In this document: positions 5,858 to 55,224 of the stretch, piece after piece | Position numbering within the stretch: the first letter of the stretch is position 1 | How the letters are laid out: the number at the start of each line of letters is the position of its first letter | Assembly (NCBI GenBank): GCA_013205245.1 | Contig: JABMNH010000022.1 | Coordinates: 1-64,000, forward strand | Direction of reading: 5' to 3' | Source: Flavobacteriales bacterium | Lineage (GTDB): Bacteria; Bacteroidota; Bacteroidia; Flavobacteriales; Flavobacteriaceae | DNA length: 64,000 nt | Position numbers and translations under genes: made by a program | Notes under the pieces: generated by a model | Told to the model about the DNA's origin: nothing | Seen by the model: the letters and a program-made list of their open reading frames with translations, nothing else | Databases searched by the model: none

Positions 5858-6544
5858 TTAAAATCCATCAGAAATATGGATAAGTTTGGCTTTATCTAGA
5901 AGTTTTATTTGTTTACCGTGCAGTTTAATAATACCATCTCGTTTAAACTCAGATAAAAGTCTTATTGAAGATTCGGTAGCAGTACCAATGGCATTTGCTA
6001 TTTCTTCTCGTGTCAATTTTACTGCAATAAACCCATTTTCATCAACCCCAAACATACGTTCAAAATACAATAAAAATTCGGCTAAACGTTCTCTAACATT
6101 TTTTTGAGCCATCGTGGCAACGGTCATATTAGCCTTGTCTAAACTGTCGCAAAGAGACTTTGTTACAGATAAAGAAAACTCTTTGTTATTGGCAAACAAA
6201 TCTAACAATTCTTGCTTTGGTATAAAGCAAACTTCCATATCTTCTAATGCCGTAACAGTTAGTTTAGCACTCGTGCTGCTTAAAATAGATTTGTGCCCAA
6301 CTATTTCACCTTGTTTGATAAATCGTACAATTTGATCTTTACCATTTGGGGTTAATTTAGAGACTTTACATTCGCCACTTTGCAAACAATAAATACCATT
6401 TAAAACAGTTCCTTCAACAAATAAAGGCTGTCCGCGTTTGATATGTAAAATTGTTTTTTTGGAGTGAAGATGAGATAATTCAGCTTTACTAAGAGAATTA
6501 AAGGAGTTGAGTTCTTTTACTAAGCAGTGTTCACAATTTGCCAT
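5858..6544 (-). CDS. Crp/Fnr family transcriptional regulator
   Basis: The 228-residue protein has an N-terminal cyclic-nucleotide-binding-type beta-barrel (about 20-135, with RGQPLFVEGTVLNGIYCLQSGE), a long dimerisation helix, and a C-terminal Crp-type winged helix (about 170-210, LTREEIANAIGTATESSIRLL). A CxxC pair lies at the N-terminus (C4, C7), but the full four-cysteine set of E. coli Fnr is not evident, so iron-sulfur oxygen sensing is possible but not shown. It is divergent from ccoI, the first gene of the cbb3 oxidase locus, which makes oxygen-dependent control of that locus the likely job. No classical TTGAT-N4-ATCAA box was found in the 119-base intergenic region. Confidence 0.9.
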   Translation of the reverse strand: MANCEHCLVKELNSFNSLSKAELSHLHSKKTILHIKRGQPLFVEGTVLNGIYCLQSGECKVSKLTPNGKDQIVRFIKQGEIVGHKSILSSTSAKLTVTALEDMEVCFIPKQELLDLFANNKEFSLSVTKSLCDSLDKANMTVATMAQKNVRERLAEFLLYFERMFGVDENGFIAVKLTREEIANAIGTATESSIRLLSEFKRDGIIKLHGKQIKLLDKAKLIHISDGF

Positions 6545-45777: not shown

Positions 45778-48342
45778 CTAAAAATTGACTCTAAATACAA
45801 AATTACTGATTCTTTCTAGCGAAACTTTATCGGCAGAATTAATAAGATTTGAAGTGTTACTTATATAAAAATCGCGGCTTAAAATATTTTCTTTATTTAA
45901 AACATTAAGATAAGATAAGCCAATGTTTGCTTTTATGTTTTTTGTTTTTGAAAGGCTAAAATTATAGGTTGTAGAAAAATCTAGCCTGTTATAACTTGGT
46001 AAATTATAATTATTTATGCCGTCTGTCTGAAGAGAATTTCCGCCATGATTATTTGAAACAATAGCAATAGCTTTTGAATAGGGTTTGCCCGAATGCCAAC
46101 GCCATCCTAAAGCAAAATCGAAATTTCTCCATCTATACGTATGCGACCAATAAAAATTGTGTTTGATATTTGAGTTTCCCGGAAAATAAGCATCGGCATT
46201 TAAATCTTCAAATTTATTTTGAGTATCGTCAAAGGTGTAGCTTAACCATGTGGCATAGTTTTTAAATTCTTTTTTTACATAAAAATCGAATCCTTTGACC
46301 TTACTTTTTCCAGGATGCGCATCGTTGTCAAAAACATCAGAAAAGCCAAAGTTTAAAGTTACAAGACCATTAATATTTTTTATATAAGCATCAACATCTA
46401 TATGCCATTTGTTTTTAATATAAGAAAAACCAAGAGAGTATTGAGTGGCTGTTATTACAGGGAATTTAGTATTATCGGCAAGCGACCATAATTTATTTTC
46501 AAGAGATAATCCGCTTTGAATGGTTTCATCAATCTGACTTAAAGTTTGCGTTTTATATTCGCCAGTAATATTTAAAATGAGATTGGGAGTTAAGTATTTG
46601 CCAATATTTAAACGTGGCTCCGCATATATTTTTTGAAGATTCTGATAATAATTGATTCTTAATCCAGCATTGAAATTAATCTTGTTTTTATCTGAATATT
46701 CAAAAGAAGTGTATAACGCATGCGTATTTAGAGTTTGATCGTTACCATCTTCGTTTGTAATATCATCATCGGTTGTTAAAAAAAAGTAGGAGACATCTTT
46801 ATTAGAAAATTGATAACCACTTTTTAAAACAAAATAGTCATTTATTTTATAGTCTGTATTTAGAGAAATACCAAAATCTTTGACCGTGTTTTTTTTAGCA
46901 AAAGATAAATTTTCTACGTCGTTTTCTGATTTAAATTTATTGTATAATAAATAATAATTAGAGTAGTAAGCATTAAGCTGATGTTTAAATTTAGGACTCC
47001 AGTTTTTAAACCAATTTACAGCATAACCACGATTATAGGTTTCTAATAAATCATTAAATAAAATGGCATTCTCATCGTCACCAGATTCAGAATCGTCAAT
47101 TTCTTTGATGCCAAAATCTAATTTATTTTTAATAAGTAAACTACTAAAAGTAAGTGTATTATTATCACCAATCTTAATAATGCCTTTAATATTGTAATCA
47201 AGAAAGAAAAAGTTGTTATTGGTGCTAAGTAAAGAATTAGGTTGTGTGCTTTTAAATACAATATCTGAAGTTTCTTTATAAGTATTGCTCTGATAAATAT
47301 CTGTAAACGATCTTCTGCCAGAAACCAAAATGCTGAACTTGTTTTTAATAACAGGCACTTTAATATAGGCATCGGTAGAGATGAGGTTAATGCCACCACC
47401 ACCTTCTAATTTTGTTTGAATAGCATCACTCGTTTTAATGTCTAAAACACTCGAAATACTTCCGCCAAATTTGGCATCGGTCCCTTTATTTATAAAATTA
47501 ATTTCTTTGGTTATATACGGATTGAATGGCGAAATAGCACCAAATAAATGACCGCTGTGGTAAATTTTAATACCGTCCCATAAAATGAGATTCTGATCTG
47601 GTGTGCCACCCCTAACATGAAGACCTGTAGCAGTTTCGCTTGGACTATTAACACCAGGTAATAATTGAATACTCTGAAATAAATCTGGTTCGGTAAGACC
47701 AGCTAAAATGCCTAGTTTTTTTGGCGAAATAATAAAAGAGCCAGAACTTGTTTTGTCAATGCCATTTGTTAAATAATTTTTAATGACAATGGTTTGTATT
47801 TTTTCGCTTTTTTCGTTCAGAATTACATCGGCACAATTGTTTTTAAACAAAGTTTTTGCTTGAATGATTTTGGATGTAAATCCCAAATATTGGAATTTAA
47901 TGAGTGATCCAGCTTTAAGATTTTCAATTTTAAAGTAACCATCTTCATCTGATACAAGACCTTTATTATTATAGATAATTGTCGCGCCAGATAAAGGTAT
48001 TTCGTTATCAGATTTAAGTGTGCCACAAATATTGATTAAATCTGCGTCGTTTATCTGCCTTACGGCGATGTATTGACTAGACAGTACCTCAAAAAATAAT
48101 GATGTTTGTTCTTTGAGTAGGTGAAGAATTTCTGGTAATGTTTTGTCTTTTACAGAAAGGCTTATAAAACGATTAGAAACATCTTTGGTTTGAAATGAAA
48201 AATGAACATTATAAGCCTTCTCCAAATAAGTAATAACTTCTGTAAGGTCTTTATTTTTAAAGTTTACAGAAGTTATTGTTTTTTGCTGTGGATAGGCGAA
48301 AAATGTGAATAGAAAAAAAACACAAACTATTTTTACCCGCAT
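45778..48342 (-). CDS. TonB-dependent receptor with STN domain, ECF-linked
   Basis: The 854-residue outer membrane receptor has a signal peptide ending YPQQ. It has an STN (secretin/TonB short N-terminal) domain (about 22-95), a carboxypeptidase-like regulatory domain (about 107-175), the plug (about 190-300, GLHVRGGTPDQNLILWDGIKIY) and a beta-barrel ending FVFRVNF. The STN domain is the signalling domain that contacts FecR proteins. The gene follows fecR by 2 bases and so completes a sigma-FecR-receptor surface-signalling set. The ligand is unknown. Redox-protein genes opposite suggest a metal or redox cofactor, by inference only. Confidence 0.92.
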   Translation of the reverse strand: MRVKIVCVFFLFTFFAYPQQKTITSVNFKNKDLTEVITYLEKAYNVHFSFQTKDVSNRFISLSVKDKTLPEILHLLKEQTSLFFEVLSSQYIAVRQINDADLINICGTLKSDNEIPLSGATIIYNNKGLVSDEDGYFKIENLKAGSLIKFQYLGFTSKIIQAKTLFKNNCADVILNEKSEKIQTIVIKNYLTNGIDKTSSGSFIISPKKLGILAGLTEPDLFQSIQLLPGVNSPSETATGLHVRGGTPDQNLILWDGIKIYHSGHLFGAISPFNPYITKEINFINKGTDAKFGGSISSVLDIKTSDAIQTKLEGGGGINLISTDAYIKVPVIKNKFSILVSGRRSFTDIYQSNTYKETSDIVFKSTQPNSLLSTNNNFFFLDYNIKGIIKIGDNNTLTFSSLLIKNKLDFGIKEIDDSESGDDENAILFNDLLETYNRGYAVNWFKNWSPKFKHQLNAYYSNYYLLYNKFKSENDVENLSFAKKNTVKDFGISLNTDYKINDYFVLKSGYQFSNKDVSYFFLTTDDDITNEDGNDQTLNTHALYTSFEYSDKNKINFNAGLRINYYQNLQKIYAEPRLNIGKYLTPNLILNITGEYKTQTLSQIDETIQSGLSLENKLWSLADNTKFPVITATQYSLGFSYIKNKWHIDVDAYIKNINGLVTLNFGFSDVFDNDAHPGKSKVKGFDFYVKKEFKNYATWLSYTFDDTQNKFEDLNADAYFPGNSNIKHNFYWSHTYRWRNFDFALGWRWHSGKPYSKAIAIVSNNHGGNSLQTDGINNYNLPSYNRLDFSTTYNFSLSKTKNIKANIGLSYLNVLNKENILSRDFYISNTSNLINSADKVSLERISNFVFRVNF

Positions 48343-48344
48343 TA

Positions 48345-49235
48345 TTATTTTTTAGATACGATAACTTTTTTGTTTTTAATTATAAAATTAAAGTTCAAAG
48401 GTACAAAAATAGACTTTAGAGCCAAATCAATATTGTGATTGTCAAAACTGGCATTTAATAAGATGTTTTTATCAATGTTTGTGGCATCTACATCAATTTT
48501 AAATTGGTTTTCTAAATCGTTAATTATAATAAATAAAGGTGTGTTTTTATAAGTGTTTAGACCATTTATCCACGAAGGTTTAGCAAGTTCAATAGCCCAG
48601 TTAGATTCAGTATTTTTTGCAAATTGATAGGTTTGTCCTTGGGTCAGAATGGTACGTTTACCATTTATGGTTACTTCAATTTTTCCTTCAAAACAGGCAA
48701 CTTTTAAATAGTTTTTACCTGTTTTAACATTAAAGTGAGTGCCTAAAACTTTTACAACGCCCATACTTGTTTTAACTAAAAATGTATTGCCATGCGCAAC
48801 TTCAAAATAAGCTTCGCCAATTAAGTTAATATTCCTACTTTCAGACCAAGATCTTTTATTATAACTTAAAGTCGATTTGGCATTTAGTTTTATATAAGTG
48901 CCGTCTTCTAAGTTAAAAGCAGATTGTTCTCCGTAATTTGTACTTAGTGTTGTATCTGAAAAAACAAATAGGTAAGCAGCCAATAGAAGCGCTACAGTAG
49001 CCGCTGCGCTATAAGCCCAATTTGGGATAAAGCTGATGACTTTAGCTTTTGGTTTGGATATTTTAGATTTAATTCTTTTTAACATGGCCTCTGAATCAAA
49101 TTTTGGAGATTCAAATTTTTCTAAATCGAATTTTATCTTGTTATATATATCAAATTCAGTTTCGCCAATCAAAGATTTTAATGCTTCGTCGGATATTTCA
49201 GCATTCAACCATTTTGCTAAAAAGTTATCATTCAT
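48345..49235 (-). CDS. FecR-family anti-sigma factor
   Basis: About 296 residues from the ATG at 49235 (MNDNFLAKWLNAEISDEAL); an ATG at 49250 is also possible. The N-terminal cytoplasmic domain binds the sigma factor, one membrane helix (about 74-92) crosses the inner membrane, the FecR domain (about 95-200, with NINLIGEAYFEVAH) is periplasmic, and a DUF4974-like C-terminal domain contacts the receptor. A GTAGGGT-N14-TTGTTTAATA promoter motif lies between the sigma gene and this gene, so fecR and the receptor can be induced separately from the sigma gene. Confidence 0.92.
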   Translation of the reverse strand: MNDNFLAKWLNAEISDEALKSLIGETEFDIYNKIKFDLEKFESPKFDSEAMLKRIKSKISKPKAKVISFIPNWAYSAAATVALLLAAYLFVFSDTTLSTNYGEQSAFNLEDGTYIKLNAKSTLSYNKRSWSESRNINLIGEAYFEVAHGNTFLVKTSMGVVKVLGTHFNVKTGKNYLKVACFEGKIEVTINGKRTILTQGQTYQFAKNTESNWAIELAKPSWINGLNTYKNTPLFIIINDLENQFKIDVDATNIDKNILLNASFDNHNIDLALKSIFVPLNFNFIIKNKKVIVSKK

Positions 49236-49279: not shown

Positions 49280-49310
49280 TATTAAACAAGCTAATATCTT
49301 AATACCCTAC
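49280..49310 (-). promoter_or_regulatory. ECF sigma promoter motif before fecR-receptor
   Basis: On the minus strand GTAGGGT (49310-49304), 14 bases, then TTGTTTAATA (49289-49280). It has the same spacing as three copies on the plus strand; the last hexamer differs by one base. GTAGGGT begins at the last base of the sigma gene stop codon. Confidence 0.7.
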
Positions 49311-49813
49311 TATATATTGCCAATTTTTTCTCTAATATATTTTAAGGCGAGGTGCATGCGTTTTTCAATAGCTTTTACAGAAAGGCCTAATAAGTCTGCA
49401 ATTTCTTTATATGTTTTCTTTTCTATTCTATTTAAAAGAAATACTTCGCGTTGGCCATCTGGCAAGTCAGACAAAGTGGTTTGAAGCTTATCCATATATT
49501 CTTTTTCTAGCATTACAAATTCGGGCGTCTCTACGTTTGTGTCATTTTGCGGAATTTGTTGGTATCTTAAAACAACCTTTTCGTGATTTTTTTCATTTAA
49601 AAACATGTTGGTAGCAACAGTAAATAAAAAGGACTTGGCTTTTTCTAAAACAACATCGGCACATTTTTGCCACAGTTTAATAAATGATTCTTGTACAATA
49701 TCTTCGGCAGATTCTAAATTACCGAATTTATAGTACAAGTAATTACGTAAATCTTTGGCATGTTTATTATAGAGACTTTCATAAACTGCAGGTTTGCATA
49801 CATTATCTAACAT
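49310..49813 (-). CDS. ECF RNA polymerase sigma factor
   Basis: A 167-residue sigma-70 family ECF factor. Region 2 is YNKHAKDLRNYLYYKFGNLESAEDIVQESFIKLWQK and region 4 is LSDLPDGQREVFLLNRIEKKTYKEIADLLGLSVKAIEKRM. The ATG at 49813 is chosen over 49870 because the upstream in-frame codons overlap a TAAATTTG promoter element (49843-49850). So the sigma gene looks to be transcribed by the housekeeping sigma, while its likely targets carry a different motif. Confidence 0.93.
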   Translation of the reverse strand: MLDNVCKPAVYESLYNKHAKDLRNYLYYKFGNLESAEDIVQESFIKLWQKCADVVLEKAKSFLFTVATNMFLNEKNHEKVVLRYQQIPQNDTNVETPEFVMLEKEYMDKLQTTLSDLPDGQREVFLLNRIEKKTYKEIADLLGLSVKAIEKRMHLALKYIREKIGNI

Positions 49814-49842
49814 CAACTTAAATTGTATAATTACTAAAAATT

Positions 49843-49850
49843 CAAATTTA
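49843..49850 (-). promoter_or_regulatory. Housekeeping promoter -7 element for the ECF sigma gene
   Basis: Reads TAAATTTG on the minus strand, an exact TAnnTTTG match 29 bases before the ATG at 49813. Confidence 0.5.
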
Positions 49851-49933
49851 AAAAAAAATAGGATAAACACTTATGTTTATTAATCTAATTTACATCATTT
49901 GTTTTCGATATTAAATAATTTTTTTATGAATAG

Positions 49934-49964
49934 GTAGGGTAATTATTTAGATGCTTGTTTTATA
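49934..49964 (+). promoter_or_regulatory. ECF sigma promoter motif before the small lipoprotein gene
   Basis: GTAGGGT (49934-49940), 14 bases, TTGTTTTATA (49955-49964). The start codon of the 44-residue lipoprotein is 48 bases further on. Confidence 0.75.
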
Positions 49965-50012
49965 ATCGAAGCGGGTAATAAAACAATTAACAAATCAACA
50001 CAATTATAAATT

Positions 50013-50147
50013 ATGAAAAATTTAAGCAAACACACAGTATTTGTAGCCCTTGTAACGGTAATGATAGCATTGGCATTTTCATCATGTAGTAAAGGGAGCT
50101 CAATTGTAGATCCAACTGAAACACATCAAGAAAACGGTACAAATTAA
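50013..50147 (+). CDS. Small lipoprotein (44 residues)
   Basis: Encodes MKNLSKHTVFVALVTVMIAL...: a lysine-containing N-region, a hydrophobic helix, and a lipobox AFSSC, leaving a mature peptide of about 20 residues, CSKGSSIVDPTETHQENGTN. No family is recognised. The gene has its own ECF-type promoter 48 bases upstream and its own perfect terminator 40 bases downstream, so it is a stand-alone unit. It is shorter than usual annotation cut-offs. Function unknown; an abundant surface peptide or a signal to the FecR/receptor pair is speculation. Confidence 0.75.
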   Translation: MKNLSKHTVFVALVTVMIALAFSSCSKGSSIVDPTETHQENGTN

Positions 50148-50187
50148 TACAACAATATTGGTTAAGTATTTTTGAGTTATGTTAGTT

Positions 50188-50216
50188 AAAAGGAAAGTAG
50201 AAATACTTTCCTTTTT
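50188..50216 (+). terminator. Terminator of the small lipoprotein unit
   Basis: AAAAGGAAAGTA (50188-50199) pairs perfectly over 12 bases with TACTTTCCTTTT (50204-50215) around a GAAA tetraloop, followed by T. Confidence 0.9.
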
Positions 50217-50250
50217 GTATTAATTATGAATTAAAATTTTTAATAAAATG

Positions 50251-50281
50251 GTAGGGTGAAATAAGATTGGTTTGTTTTATA
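50251..50281 (+). promoter_or_regulatory. ECF sigma promoter motif before a short non-coding unit
   Basis: GTAGGGT (50251-50257), 14 bases, TTGTTTTATA (50272-50281). No coding frame follows before the terminator at 50345-50374. Confidence 0.75.
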
Positions 50282-50287
50282 ATTGAA

Positions 50288-50374
50288 GAGTCAATAAAGA
50301 AATAAATAGAAAATATATTTTTGAGTTAGTTAGTTTGATTAGATAAAGAGGAGCATGAGGGTTCCTCTTTTTTT
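50288..50374 (+). ncRNA. Candidate short non-coding transcript, ECF-controlled
   Basis: A unit of about 90 bases lies between a full ECF-type promoter motif (50251-50281) and a rho-independent terminator (50345-50374), with no plausible reading frame. Its middle (TATTTTTGAGTTAGTTAG) resembles the 3' region of the preceding lipoprotein unit (TATTTTTGAGTTATGTTAG), and both have GAAG just after the promoter. It may be a decayed duplicate of that unit that has lost its gene, or a small RNA. Ends are estimated. Confidence 0.4.
50345..50374 (+). terminator. Terminator of the short non-coding unit
   Basis: AAAGAGGA (50345-50352) pairs with TCCTCTTT (50363-50370), with a 10-base loop and a T run to 50374. 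Confidence 0.85.
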
Positions 50375-50423
50375 GTTTTTAATTTATCTGTAAACTAATA
50401 TTTTAAAAATATTTTAATTAAGA

Positions 50424-50454
50424 GTAGGGTAAATTTATCAGTCCTTGTTTTATA
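50424..50454 (+). promoter_or_regulatory. ECF sigma promoter motif before the thioredoxin-ApbE-DUF3570 operon
   Basis: GTAGGGT (50424-50430), 14 bases, TTGTTTTATA (50445-50454). The first gene of the operon starts 43 bases further on. Confidence 0.75.
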
Positions 50455-50497: not shown

Positions 50498-50962
50498 ATG
50501 AAAAAATTATCAACTTTAGCTTTATTCTTAATAGGTTTTAGTGCAGTTGCTCAAATAACCAGTGTGACTAATTTAAACGAAGCCAAATCTATAGCTACTT
50601 TAGAAAATAAAACCATTATGATAGTCTTTTCTGGATCCGATTGGTGTGTGCCTTGCATGCGTTTAGAAAAGGAAATATTGAGCCAACCTGAATTTGAAAA
50701 TTTTGAGGCCAAAAAAATTGTGCTTTTAAAAGCTGATTTTCCTACACGTAGCAAAAACAAAAAATTGATAAGCCAAGCGCAACAGGATTATAACGCTAAG
50801 TTATTCGAAAAATACAATCCAAAGGGCATTTTCCCACTAGTGGTTCTGTTAAATAGCGACGCCAAAGTAATCGCCGAAACAGGCTATAAAAATATGAGTT
50901 CGGGCGCATATGCATCTTATATAAATGATTTGGTAGCCTCTAAAGACACCCAAGTTTATTAA
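50498..50962 (+). CDS. Secreted thioredoxin-like protein
   Basis: A 154-residue protein with a signal peptide (MKKLSTLALFLIGFSAVAQ) and a thioredoxin fold of the Thioredoxin_7/DUF255-like type. The active-site motif is SDWCVPCMRLEKEIL (CVPC), and cis-proline-region IFPLVVLLN follows. It would act as a thiol-disulfide oxidoreductase in the periplasm. It is first in a four-gene operon with ApbE, a small Cys-tailed lipoprotein and DUF3570. Its likely substrate is a disulfide or metal-binding cysteine in one of these partners, for example the CGC tail of the small lipoprotein (inference). Confidence 0.88.
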   Translation: MKKLSTLALFLIGFSAVAQITSVTNLNEAKSIATLENKTIMIVFSGSDWCVPCMRLEKEILSQPEFENFEAKKIVLLKADFPTRSKNKKLISQAQQDYNAKLFEKYNPKGIFPLVVLLNSDAKVIAETGYKNMSSGAYASYINDLVASKDTQVY

Positions 50963-50999: not shown

Positions 51000-51989
51000 A
51001 TGAAAATTAAATTAACCATAACTGTTTTGATTCTATGTTTTGTTCAGCAATTGACAGCGCAAACACAAGAATATAAAAGAGACCTAAAACTTATGGGGAG
51101 TGGTTTTGAAATAATTGTTATAGCCGATAATAATAAAGATGGCGAACAATATATTGATGTGGCTATAGCCGAAATAAAAAGAATCGAAAATATTATTTCG
51201 TCTTGGTCTTCAACATCCGAAACTTCTGATGTAAACAGAAATGCAGGCATGAAACCTGTAAAAGTAAGTGACGAATTGTTCAATTTAATTGATAGAGCTA
51301 TCAATATATCTAAGCTCACCGATGGTGCTTTTGACATAAGTTATGCCTCGATGGATAAAATTTGGAAGTTTGATGGCAGTATGTCAGAAATGCCATCCGC
51401 GGAAGCGATTAAAAAATCGGTAGTAAAAGTGGGCTATCAAAACATCATCCTCAACAAAGAAAAAAGCACTGTCTTTTTAAAATTAAAAGGAATGAAAATT
51501 GGGTTTGGGGCTATTGGCAAAGGTTATGCGGCAGATAAAGCCAAAGCATTATTACAAAATATGGGCGTAAAAGCGGGCGTGATTAACGCTTCTGGCGATA
51601 TGAATACCTGGGGCGTGCAAGCAGATGAAAAACCTTGGAAAGTCGGAATTACCAATCCAGTTAACAAAGAAAAAGTGTTTTCGTGGTTTAACTTAACAGA
51701 TGATGCCGTTGTAACTTCTGGCAACTATGAAAAATATGTAAAATTTAATGGTGTAACCTATACACATATTATTGATCCAAGAACGGGCTATCCAGCGCAC
51801 GGCATTTATAGTGCCACGGTATTTAGCAAGAGTGCCGAATTAAGTGATGCTTTAGCCACATCAATTTTTGTAATGGGCGTAGAAACAGGCTTAGATTTTA
51901 TAAATCAATTAAACGGTGTTGAATGTGTCATTGTAGATGAAAATTTAAGACTTCACTTTTCAAATAAATTAAAAACTAAAGAATACTAA
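51000..51989 (+). CDS. apbE: FAD:protein FMN transferase
   Basis: ApbE-family enzyme of 329 residues with a signal peptide (MKIKLTITVLILCFVQQLTAQ). It attaches FMN from FAD to a Thr/Ser of exported proteins. Family blocks present are ISSWSSTSETSDVNRNAG, GFGAIGKGYAADKAK, GVINASGDMNTWG, YTHIIDPRTGYP and a Mg-site aspartate/threonine region SDALATSIFVMG. No FMN-bind domain protein is encoded nearby, so the acceptor is either elsewhere or one of the operon partners. It is 37 bases after the thioredoxin gene and 2 bases before the next gene. Confidence 0.94.
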   Translation: MKIKLTITVLILCFVQQLTAQTQEYKRDLKLMGSGFEIIVIADNNKDGEQYIDVAIAEIKRIENIISSWSSTSETSDVNRNAGMKPVKVSDELFNLIDRAINISKLTDGAFDISYASMDKIWKFDGSMSEMPSAEAIKKSVVKVGYQNIILNKEKSTVFLKLKGMKIGFGAIGKGYAADKAKALLQNMGVKAGVINASGDMNTWGVQADEKPWKVGITNPVNKEKVFSWFNLTDDAVVTSGNYEKYVKFNGVTYTHIIDPRTGYPAHGIYSATVFSKSAELSDALATSIFVMGVETGLDFINQLNGVECVIVDENLRLHFSNKLKTKEY

Positions 51990-51991
51990 AT

Positions 51992-52213
51992 ATGAACAAA
52001 ATGAGAAAAATAATGATCATAATGCTATTTGCAGGTTTAATTACAAGTAGTTGTAGTTCTGTAAAAGCTTACGAACGCGCCAAACTTAACGATAAAGAAA
52101 TGGCATTATCGCCAAAATTATCGGCACGGTATGAATTACAATTTCATACATATAGAGAAGCAGCATCTGGTGCAAATGGAGGTAAAACTGGTGGCGGTTG
52201 CGGCTGTAATTAG
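51992..52213 (+). CDS. DUF4266-type small lipoprotein with Cys-rich tail
   Basis: A 73-residue protein with a lipoprotein signal (LITSSC lipobox), a conserved central stretch KAYERAKLNDKEMALSPKLSARYELQFHTYREAASG, and a Gly-rich tail ending GGGCGCN. The CxC at the extreme C-terminus could bind a metal or form a disulfide with the partner thioredoxin. It is 2 bases after apbE and 22 bases before the DUF3570 gene. I recognise the family by its RE-A-G...GGCGCN ending; its biochemical role is not established. Confidence 0.85.
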   Translation: MNKMRKIMIIMLFAGLITSSCSSVKAYERAKLNDKEMALSPKLSARYELQFHTYREAASGANGGKTGGGCGCN

Positions 52214-52235: not shown

Positions 52236-53597
52236 ATGAAAAGATTATTAATAGTTCTTTTAGTGGTATTTACTGCCATTATAAATGCACAAGAAAAAAA
52301 GGACAGTATTGCTGTAAATAGAACAGCTTATAAAAAGAAAGTTTTAGATAATGTAGAGGTTAACTTTTTATACAGTAATTACCTACAAAACGGGAGTCAT
52401 GCTGCTGTAACTGGTGGTGTTGGCGATGAAAAATTGACCGATAATACACCTGCTATTTTAATTAATATTCCACTAAATGCAGATGCTATTTTAAGTGTTG
52501 ATTTTGGGGTAGATTTTACCACATCGGCTTCTACAGATCAAATCAATCCTTTTGCAGTAGCTGTAACAGGTGGTGGAGAAGGCGATGATCGAGATAAATC
52601 TGGAACAACAAGCAGTAAATCTTCTGCACTTCTTAAAACAAGTGCTTCTACTGGTGGTGGAGATGATGGGCCTCCTGCTCATGCTAGAAAACATGGCAGT
52701 CTAACTTATACACATACTTCTGATAATAGAACTTTCTCTTGGGGTGTAGATGGCGCTTTTTCATCAGAACAAGGCTATAATTCTGTTGGCGCTGGCATAC
52801 AATTTAGAAAATCTTTTAATAATGATAATTCCGAAATCAATTTCAATTCATCAGCCTATTTCGATAAATTAGATTTAATTTATCCTGGTGAATTTAGGAC
52901 TTCAGAAGGTTTGAGTCCTTCGGTTGGGTTTAAATTATTGGATTTAAATCACAGAAATTCATTTTCTGCGGCTTTATCATTTTCGCAAATGTTGAACAAG
53001 CGCATGCAAATTTCTTTTAGTGCCGATATTATTTACCAAGAAGGATTGCTTTCTACAAACTACCAGCGTGTGTATTTTAAAGACAAACCAATAGAAACTG
53101 TAAATAATATTGAATTAGCACATGATGTTGAGCGTTTGCCAAGCACACGTAGCAAACATCCTTTTGGAATGCGTTTTAACTATGCCGTATCTGATGTTAT
53201 TATTTTAAGAACATTTTACCGCTATTATTCAGATGATTGGGGTGTTTCTGCCAACACATACGACATTCAAGTTCCTTTAAAGTTGTCGAAATCGTTTACG
53301 GTTTACCCGATGTACAGACACCATTCGCAACAACAATCTACCTATTTTGCACCAAAAAGTTCACACAAATCAACAGAAACATTTTACACATCAGATTACG
53401 ATTTATCAACTTTTAGTAGCTCACAATATGGTGTGGGCTTTACAATTGCACCTCCTTTAGGAATTTTTAAACTAGACACCTCAAATGCAGGCAATCCATT
53501 TAGATTTAAAAGTTTTGATATCAGGTACAATTACTATTCTAGATCTGACGGTCTTAAGGCTAATATTCTTTCTCTAAACGCACAGTTTAGTTTTTAG
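52236..53597 (+). CDS. DUF3570 outer membrane beta-barrel protein
   Basis: About 453 residues from the ATG at 52236 (MKRLLIVLLVVFTAIINAQ, signal peptide). The upstream in-frame codons to 52131 overlap the preceding gene and are not used. The body is rich in alternating aromatic/polar beta-strands and ends SLNAQFSF, as in barrel proteins. Residues about 110-155 form a Gly/Ser/Asp-rich, histidine-containing loop (GGGDDGPPAHARKHG). It is the last gene of the thioredoxin/ApbE/DUF4266 operon and is followed by a strong terminator. The family is unexplained; a porin or outer-membrane partner of the small lipoprotein is an inference. Confidence 0.87.
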   Translation: MKRLLIVLLVVFTAIINAQEKKDSIAVNRTAYKKKVLDNVEVNFLYSNYLQNGSHAAVTGGVGDEKLTDNTPAILINIPLNADAILSVDFGVDFTTSASTDQINPFAVAVTGGGEGDDRDKSGTTSSKSSALLKTSASTGGGDDGPPAHARKHGSLTYTHTSDNRTFSWGVDGAFSSEQGYNSVGAGIQFRKSFNNDNSEINFNSSAYFDKLDLIYPGEFRTSEGLSPSVGFKLLDLNHRNSFSAALSFSQMLNKRMQISFSADIIYQEGLLSTNYQRVYFKDKPIETVNNIELAHDVERLPSTRSKHPFGMRFNYAVSDVIILRTFYRYYSDDWGVSANTYDIQVPLKLSKSFTVYPMYRHHSQQQSTYFAPKSSHKSTETFYTSDYDLSTFSSSQYGVGFTIAPPLGIFKLDTSNAGNPFRFKSFDIRYNYYSRSDGLKANILSLNAQFSF

Positions 53598-53636
53598 CAT
53601 ACCCCAACCGTCAGAGTTTAGGTTTTTTGGTTAGTT

Positions 53637-53666
53637 AAAGGCAAGGATTTTTCCTTGCCTTTTTTT
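53637..53666 (+). terminator. Terminator of the thioredoxin-ApbE-DUF3570 operon
   Basis: AAAGGCAAGGA (53637-53647) pairs perfectly with TCCTTGCCTTT (53652-53662), with a short T loop and a T run. Confidence 0.92.
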
Positions 53667-53717
53667 GTGATTAAGAGCAATTAAATTAGATTTACATAAT
53701 TATAAAATAATTTAAAG

Positions 53718-54458: not shown

Positions 54459-54588
54459 ATAAGTTTGTCATATTTTCTTAATCTTGAATTTTAGTACGTA
54501 AAAATAGGTAGAACTAAAATTACCTTGTTTTACTATGATGCAGAATTTCAGTTGGTTATATATTTACAACATATTAAAACCAATTGAT

Positions 54589-55224
54589 ATGAAACCCTTT
54601 ACAACCAACACAGTTTACTTATCCCTAATAGGTCTATGCTGTTTAATAAATTTAAATTCCTGTACCACAGAGCCTATAGAAGTTATTGAAGCAGTTTCTA
54701 CTAGTAAATTAGAGGTTTCTAATGATCCAGACAAAGATGGATTAATCACAGAAATCGAAATCATTTTAGGTACAGACCCTAATAATGCAGATACAGATAA
54801 TGATGGATTATTAGATGGCATTGAAGATTTTAACAGAAATGGTATTGTTGATGTAACAGAATCAAATCCTTTGTTAGAAGACACAGATAGTGATGGTATA
54901 CTAGATGCTACCGAAGATTTAAACCATAATGGAAAAATGGATGCAGGCGAAATGTATCCGCTAAGTAAAGATACGGACGGCGATTTAATTGAAGACGGTG
55001 TAGAAGACAAAAATAAAAATGGAAAACATGATGCTGGTGAAACAAACGGTACAGATAGTGATTCAGATGATGACGGTTTGTCAGATGGTGAAGAAGATAG
55101 TAATCAAGACGGAAACCAAGATCCAGGAGAATCAGATCCAAATGATTCAGATACTGACGATGATGCCGATGGTGATGGTGTAAATGATGATGATCAAGGT
55201 GATGATGATGACGATGATGACTAA
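54589..55224 (+). CDS. Asp-rich repeat lipoprotein (thrombospondin type 3-like)
   Basis: About 211 residues from the ATG at 54589. The lipobox LNSC gives a lipoprotein. The mature part is a series of calcium-binding repeats of the DxDxDGLxD type (DKDGLITEIE, DTDNDGLLDGIED, DTDSDGILDATED, DTDGDLIEDGVED, DSDDDGLSDGEED), ending in a run of aspartates. The ATG at 54589 is chosen because the in-frame ATG at 54535 precedes a non-signal-like stretch. Calcium binding is expected from the repeats; the biological role is unknown. CTTGTTTTAC upstream partly resembles the ECF motif but with wrong spacing. Confidence 0.8.
   Translation: MKPFTTNTVYLSLIGLCCLINLNSCTTEPIEVIEAVSTSKLEVSNDPDKDGLITEIEIILGTDPNNADTDNDGLLDGIEDFNRNGIVDVTESNPLLEDTDSDGILDATEDLNHNGKMDAGEMYPLSKDTDGDLIEDGVEDKNKNGKHDAGETNGTDSDSDDDGLSDGEEDSNQDGNQDPGESDPNDSDTDDDADGDGVNDDDQGDDDDDDD

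Follow-up and report, generated by a model that had tools for sequence, protein, structure and literature searches.

A GTAGGGT-type ECF promoter family that probably places redox operons under FecI/FecR/TonB-receptor-type control in a Flavobacteriales bacterium

Results

Genes and features of the locus

The window (the whole stretch of 64,000 nucleotides analysed, positions 1 to 64,000 of contig JABMNH010000022.1) contains an ECF sigma factor gene that is followed on the minus strand by the genes for a FecR anti-sigma factor and a TonB-dependent receptor. A small lipoprotein gene, a short non-coding unit and a thioredoxin-ApbE-DUF4266-DUF3570 operon lie on the plus strand. The features are listed below, the promoters being those predicted by the pattern search and the matrix described in the next section.

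45778..48342, minus: TonB-dependent receptor with an N-terminal signalling-type domain (Pfam TonB_dep_Rec_b-barrel, Plug and CarbopepD_reg_2)
48345..49235, minus: FecR anti-sigma factor (Pfam FecR PF04773, 68.1 bits, and FecR_C)
49280..49310, minus: predicted ECF promoter of fecR-receptor (−35 GTAGGGT, −10 TTGTTTAATA)
49310..49813, minus: ECF sigma factor, FecI-like, 167 aa (Pfam Sigma70_r2 and Sigma70_r4_2)
49843..49850, minus: TAAATTTG, housekeeping-type −7 box (TAnnTTTG) of the sigma gene, read directly
49934..49964, plus: predicted ECF promoter of the small lipoprotein gene
50013..50147, plus: putative lipoprotein, 44 aa, lipobox-like SSCS (ORF reading)
50189..50219, plus: intrinsic terminator 3' of the lipoprotein gene
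50251..50281, plus: predicted ECF promoter of the non-coding unit
50286..about 50378, plus: non-coding unit of about 90 nt, ORF-free up to the intrinsic terminator at its end
50424..50454, plus: predicted ECF promoter of the thioredoxin-ApbE-DUF4266-DUF3570 operon
50498..50962, plus: secreted thioredoxin-like protein with CVPC (Pfam Thioredoxin_7)
51000..51989, plus: ApbE, FAD:protein FMN transferase (Pfam ApbE, 287.7 bits)
51992..52213, plus: DUF4266, small and lipoprotein-like, with C-terminal GGGCGCN (CXC) (Pfam DUF4266, 70.9 bits)
52236..53597, plus: DUF3570, probable outer-membrane beta-barrel (Pfam DUF3570, 120.6 bits; model and fold matches)
53637..53670, plus: intrinsic terminator of the thioredoxin-ApbE-DUF4266-DUF3570 operon

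The sigma factor scores 117.3 bits against TIGR02985, slightly below the cut-off of 126.4, and is not counted as a member of this family. Residues 27-85 of the receptor match FecR_C above its cut-off, and match STN at 24.6 bits, under its cut-off of 28.4. A ligand search found no sequence relative of the receptor among solved structures. The gene after the receptor is a topoisomerase-like ORF, and the ORFs of the window include no SusD-like one beside the receptor, indicating that this is not a SusC/SusD uptake locus.

ApbE attaches FMN to its substrates, and DUF3570 is an experimentally shown substrate in Chlorobium luteolum, with the thioredoxin-like and DUF4266 proteins as proposed partners in flavinylation (PMC8238504). 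The DUF3570 protein is modelled as a beta-barrel with modest confidence (mean pLDDT 59), and outer-membrane barrels are among its best fold matches, at low TM-scores. It contains two TSAS sites rather than [S/T]GA[S/T], one of which is conserved in L163 and L234. The ORF at 54535-55224 encodes a highly acidic, secreted-looking protein in which calcium-binding repeats of the Dx[DN]xDG type are followed by a terminal Asp run.

The 44-aa lipoprotein has no match in Pfam or NCBIfam. A sister species (L115) contains a similar small lipoprotein gene, also with the promoter motif, and a similar non-coding unit (90-228) upstream of it. A search of the non-coding unit against Rfam gave only two weak matches, both well under the gathering score, and its fold is unremarkable (z-score −1.8, due mostly to the terminator). 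A strict screen finds four such units among 207 sites, and reading by eye suggests more. The unit is, from its sequence, probably a small RNA. A C-poor GAGTTAGTT-like stretch, at 50165-50188, 50320-50344 and 53612-53636, lies just 5' of the terminator of each of the three plus-strand units (small lipoprotein, non-coding and thioredoxin-ApbE). This UG-rich element was considered as a mark of the regulon and rejected on a survey of terminators, which shows related elements before a few other terminators of the genome.

Promoter motif in the window

The pattern GTAGGGT-N14-TTGTTTWATA occurs at four exact sites in the window, with zero mismatches, at the coordinates and on the strands given in the preliminary description. 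When up to three mismatches are permitted, the same four sites are still the only ones. Shuffled windows contain a mean of 0.83 sites and never reach four. The minus-strand site begins with a G that is also the final base of the sigma stop codon. A test matrix, built from 79 fecR promoters of other genera with the genus of the window left out, gives the same four sites with scores of 22.9-27.7, and nothing further above 10 in the window. Under a third-order Markov null, about 0.3 sites per genome score above 22 and none above 24.

Conservation is restricted to the core GTAGGGT(A/T)-N14-(T/C)TGTTnTA, which is asymmetric and without an inverted repeat. The TGTT-type box of the −10 element originally proposed is retained in this core, while the full 10-mer TTGTTTTATA is not and overstates the element, because the conserved part is shorter. 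Two boxes at fixed spacing, a TGTT/CGTT −10 and an adjoining ECF/anti-sigma pair fit an ECF promoter, and the four sites are ECF-type promoters as judged by these features. This result supports the earlier suggestion that the FecR/receptor genes, the lipoprotein gene, the non-coding unit and the thioredoxin-ApbE operon have a common ECF-type promoter beside the gene for an ECF sigma factor. No description of the GTAGGGT motif with sigma factors was found among the papers listed by searches of the open-licence PMC literature, those listed for the motif itself looking unrelated by title.

Conservation of the circuit at orthologous clusters

Orthologous sigma/FecR/TonB-receptor clusters (n=87) were collected from Flavobacteriaceae, Saprospiraceae and Chitinophagales, from the family and from named genomes. 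The motif is present directly 5' of fecR in 81 of the 87 clusters, and the threshold is reached in 0 of 1740 shuffles. The distance between the motif and the start codon is mostly 5-45 bp. Because the matrix was seeded with the pattern of the preliminary description, the tests on untrained data are the ones that count. The divergent side of the sigma gene, which was unused in training, contains the motif in 61/87 clusters versus 0/870 shuffles.

The sigma gene itself had been described as having an ordinary promoter, and this is borne out: a TAnnTTTG box is located at 49850-49843 on the minus strand, and a GTAGGGT-type promoter is absent. TAnnTTTG is found within 130 nt of the sigma gene in 67/87 orthologues (10.6% in shuffles), and a site of the GTAGGGT type precedes the sigma gene in one of the 87, where it is marginal. 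Because the −7 box of housekeeping promoters in Flavobacterium psychrophilum is reported to be TAnnTTTG (PMC9723704), the sigma factor is apparently made from a housekeeping promoter. The arrangement in which a housekeeping promoter serves the sigma gene and the ECF promoter serves FecR and the receptor appears, from these sequences, to hold across the clade.

The genome contains one member of this sigma clade, the next best sigma factor being 29% identical, and none of its five other ECF loci contains the motif. Because of these two results, the assignment of the motif to this sigma factor is good, and the sigma factor is predicted to recognize it. The relatives often contain two to four sigma factors of the clade, which leaves the assignment within the clade ambiguous there.

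The commonest divergent target in the relatives is a large lipoprotein, which suggests that the redox role described below is lineage-specific rather than the ancestral core. CFxFxYP-like stretches recur within this lipoprotein (L118, L131, L182, L193 and others), of which Pfam covers little or nothing. In Aquimarina (L177, L179, L180 and others), the motif is located 5' of 7TM-transglutaminase and ATP-grasp glutamate-ligase-like genes. In three Kordia genomes (L166, L171 and L172, about 6000-6400, minus strand), the divergent ECF promoter is followed by a non-coding stretch (GTGGCAGCAAAGCTATTGAG...) that is conserved and looks structured. The short transcripts downstream of the motif at L119 6071, L121 7268 and L135 7062 have ATTGCTATGA and GTGTTTAGGTTGGTTTTT before the terminator in common, and are candidates for tiny ORFs or a small RNA family.

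Sites elsewhere in the genome

The genome (GCA_013205245.1, 2.38 Mb, 79 contigs, 94% complete) was searched with a relaxed pattern and the matrix, and the whole-genome figures come from pattern searches and a 385 kb sample. The exact pattern has a single additional copy, 5' of pntA. Outside the window, three sites on other contigs, one of them before pntA, have scores of 27.9-28.8, where the Markov null gives none above 24. They precede the following genes.

Other contig: cytochrome operon, encoding a membrane protein (275 aa), a 4Fe-4S/FAD pyridine-nucleotide oxidoreductase (451 aa) and a cytochrome (613 aa, 23 CXXCH)
Other contig: transhydrogenase operon, encoding NAD(P) transhydrogenase, pntA first
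Other contig: CcsBA/ResB cytochrome maturation gene, with the site 249 nt upstream of the gene

The regulon had been called compact; these equally strong sites before pntA, the multihaem-cytochrome operon and CcsBA contradict that. The cytochrome operon is followed by an incomplete gene for another multihaem cytochrome, which is cut off where the contig ends. In the sister species, the corresponding sites score 21.7 (cytochrome operon), 17.5 (pntA) and 21.5 (CcsBA). Within the family, the motif is present 5' of the cytochrome operon in 9/18 cases and absent in the other 9/18, and CcsBA copies near the cytochrome operon carry it in two genomes. It precedes the thioredoxin-ApbE-DUF4266-DUF3570 operon in 8 of 41 family cases, the remaining 33 being without it, and the two groups are separated by a clear gap. 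The motif-bearing operons include those of L163, where the sigma cluster adjoins the operon, and of L234, a Saprospiraceae genome. In L106, the thioredoxin-ApbE-DUF4266-DUF3570 genes are contiguous with those for the membrane protein, oxidoreductase and cytochrome. DUF4266 is present more frequently where the genome has the cytochrome operon than where it does not (13/18 versus 101/281; Fisher p = 0.004, a test that ignores phylogeny).

pntA was rejected as a family-wide target, since the motif before it is confined to this genus among the genomes tested. Two weak sites, C20 (within a gene) and C58 (score 14.9), were discarded. A site at C51:2010-2038 (score 22.5) falls where a divergent gene begins and precedes a hemA-like gene by 181 nt. 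A role in haem supply would suit the regulon, or this site may be due to chance.

Discussion

Proposed control of extracytoplasmic electron transfer

Computation established the promoter and its conservation, together with the target genes and the families to which they belong, and the ECF promoter family and its regulon are real, wider and more coherent than first seen. The redox content of this regulon points to a reading absent from the preliminary description, namely that surface signalling of the FecI/FecR/TonB-receptor type has been recruited to control extracytoplasmic electron transfer. This reading is likely to be correct. Within it, we infer that the sigma factor recognizes the promoters and is inhibited by FecR, that there is a signal, and that electrons flow between the modules. 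The sigma factor would be made from its housekeeping promoter and presumably be held by FecR until the outer-membrane receptor senses its ligand, upon which FecR would free the sigma factor to act. The freed sigma factor would direct RNA polymerase to GTAGGGT-N14-(T/C)TGTTnTA promoters and would raise its own anti-sigma factor and receptor, not itself, in a loop that appears to be conserved in the clade. It would also turn on the thioredoxin/ApbE/DUF4266/DUF3570 flavin system, the operon for the membrane protein, FAD-FeS oxidoreductase and 23-haem cytochrome, CcsBA for cytochrome maturation, NAD(P) transhydrogenase, the small lipoprotein and the probable small RNA. With the oxidoreductase, the multihaem cytochrome, the cytochrome maturation function and the transhydrogenase, an electron route to the envelope would be complete, and the redox modules may form one chain leading to an electron acceptor. 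Thus, one switch probably activates a whole electron-transfer programme outside the cytoplasm. A bolder version, in which the receptor-signalled ECF sigma factor would be a dedicated switch for one envelope-spanning pathway of flavinylated DUF3570/DUF4266 and the oxidoreductase-fed 23-haem cytochrome, tuned by the small RNA, is possible and is put forward tentatively.

It is rather unlikely that the motif is a true promoter of the sigma clade whose role is control of surface lipoproteins and the receptor, with the redox operons acquired piecemeal and forming no coherent programme. The divergent target is the large lipoprotein in most relatives, Aquimarina-like genomes have the 7TM-transglutaminase and ATP-grasp ligase genes instead, and most thioredoxin-ApbE operons of the family are without the motif, all of which would be expected from such a role. 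However, nearly all strong sites in the genus precede redox genes, in both species despite changed site sequences, and redox targets are seen again in distant genomes. Control of electron transfer by surface signalling is the preferred reading.

The sites might instead bind a transcription factor, either activator or repressor, because a conserved two-box sequence by itself is no proof of recognition by a sigma factor. This is improbable in view of the asymmetry of the motif, which forms no inverted repeat, the constant spacing, a TGTT/CGTT −10 that in most cases lies 5-45 bp upstream of the start codon, and the tie to the ECF/FecR pair in 81/87 clusters, where no other common regulator was seen. 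Local duplication or chance is more improbable still as the origin of the four copies. A stretch of 521 bp holds three of the four sites, and a 3' element is common to the lipoprotein and non-coding units, as recent duplications lacking regulatory meaning would leave, but the 14-base spacers and flanks differ among the copies and the motif recurs 5' of orthologous genes in many genera, a conservation that contradicts this reading.

DUF3570/DUF4266 clusters are widespread and have no known purpose. The present results give them a candidate regulator and a promoter that can be read from sequence, with a 23-haem cytochrome operon, cytochrome maturation and transhydrogenase as candidate partners, which makes the pathway testable. 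The sequence rule makes the targets of this Bacteroidota sigma clade readable from genomes. The predicted circuit, conserved in the clade, is one where the sigma factor would raise production of FecR and the receptor but not its own.

Comparison with known systems

The FecI-FecR-FecA system of E. coli is a cell-surface signalling system for ferric citrate uptake. The present locus resembles it in that a FecI-like ECF sigma factor, a FecR anti-sigma factor and a TonB receptor with a signalling-type domain are encoded side by side, and in that the sigma factor is predicted to act on the receptor gene. It differs in that fecR is also a predicted target along with the receptor gene, that the sigma factor would be made from its own housekeeping promoter, and that the further predicted targets are redox operons, whereas that in E. 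coli is a transporter. SusC/SusD uptake loci of Bacteroidota are likewise under ECF/FecR regulation, and have an ECF sigma factor, a FecR-type anti-sigma factor and a TonB receptor in common with this locus, which differs in having no SusD-like gene by the receptor.

The SM6 promoters of F. psychrophilum are also a Flavobacteriaceae ECF-type promoter class, and among their targets are a putative regulatory RNA and the genes of an ECF/anti-sigma pair; they differ in being described by a CGT box and in having targets of the T9SS and Band-7 kinds, and GTAGGG is absent from the main text of that report (PMC9723704). The thioredoxin-ApbE operon resembles the reported flavinylation clusters in containing all four genes, ApbE, DUF3570, DUF4266 and thioredoxin, with a C-terminal CXC in DUF4266 (PMC8238504). 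The named neighbours of those clusters are DsbD or an iron transporter (PMC8238504), whereas the operon described here has TSAS in place of [S/T]GA[S/T] and is linked to an ECF/FecR/receptor regulator and a multihaem cytochrome operon.
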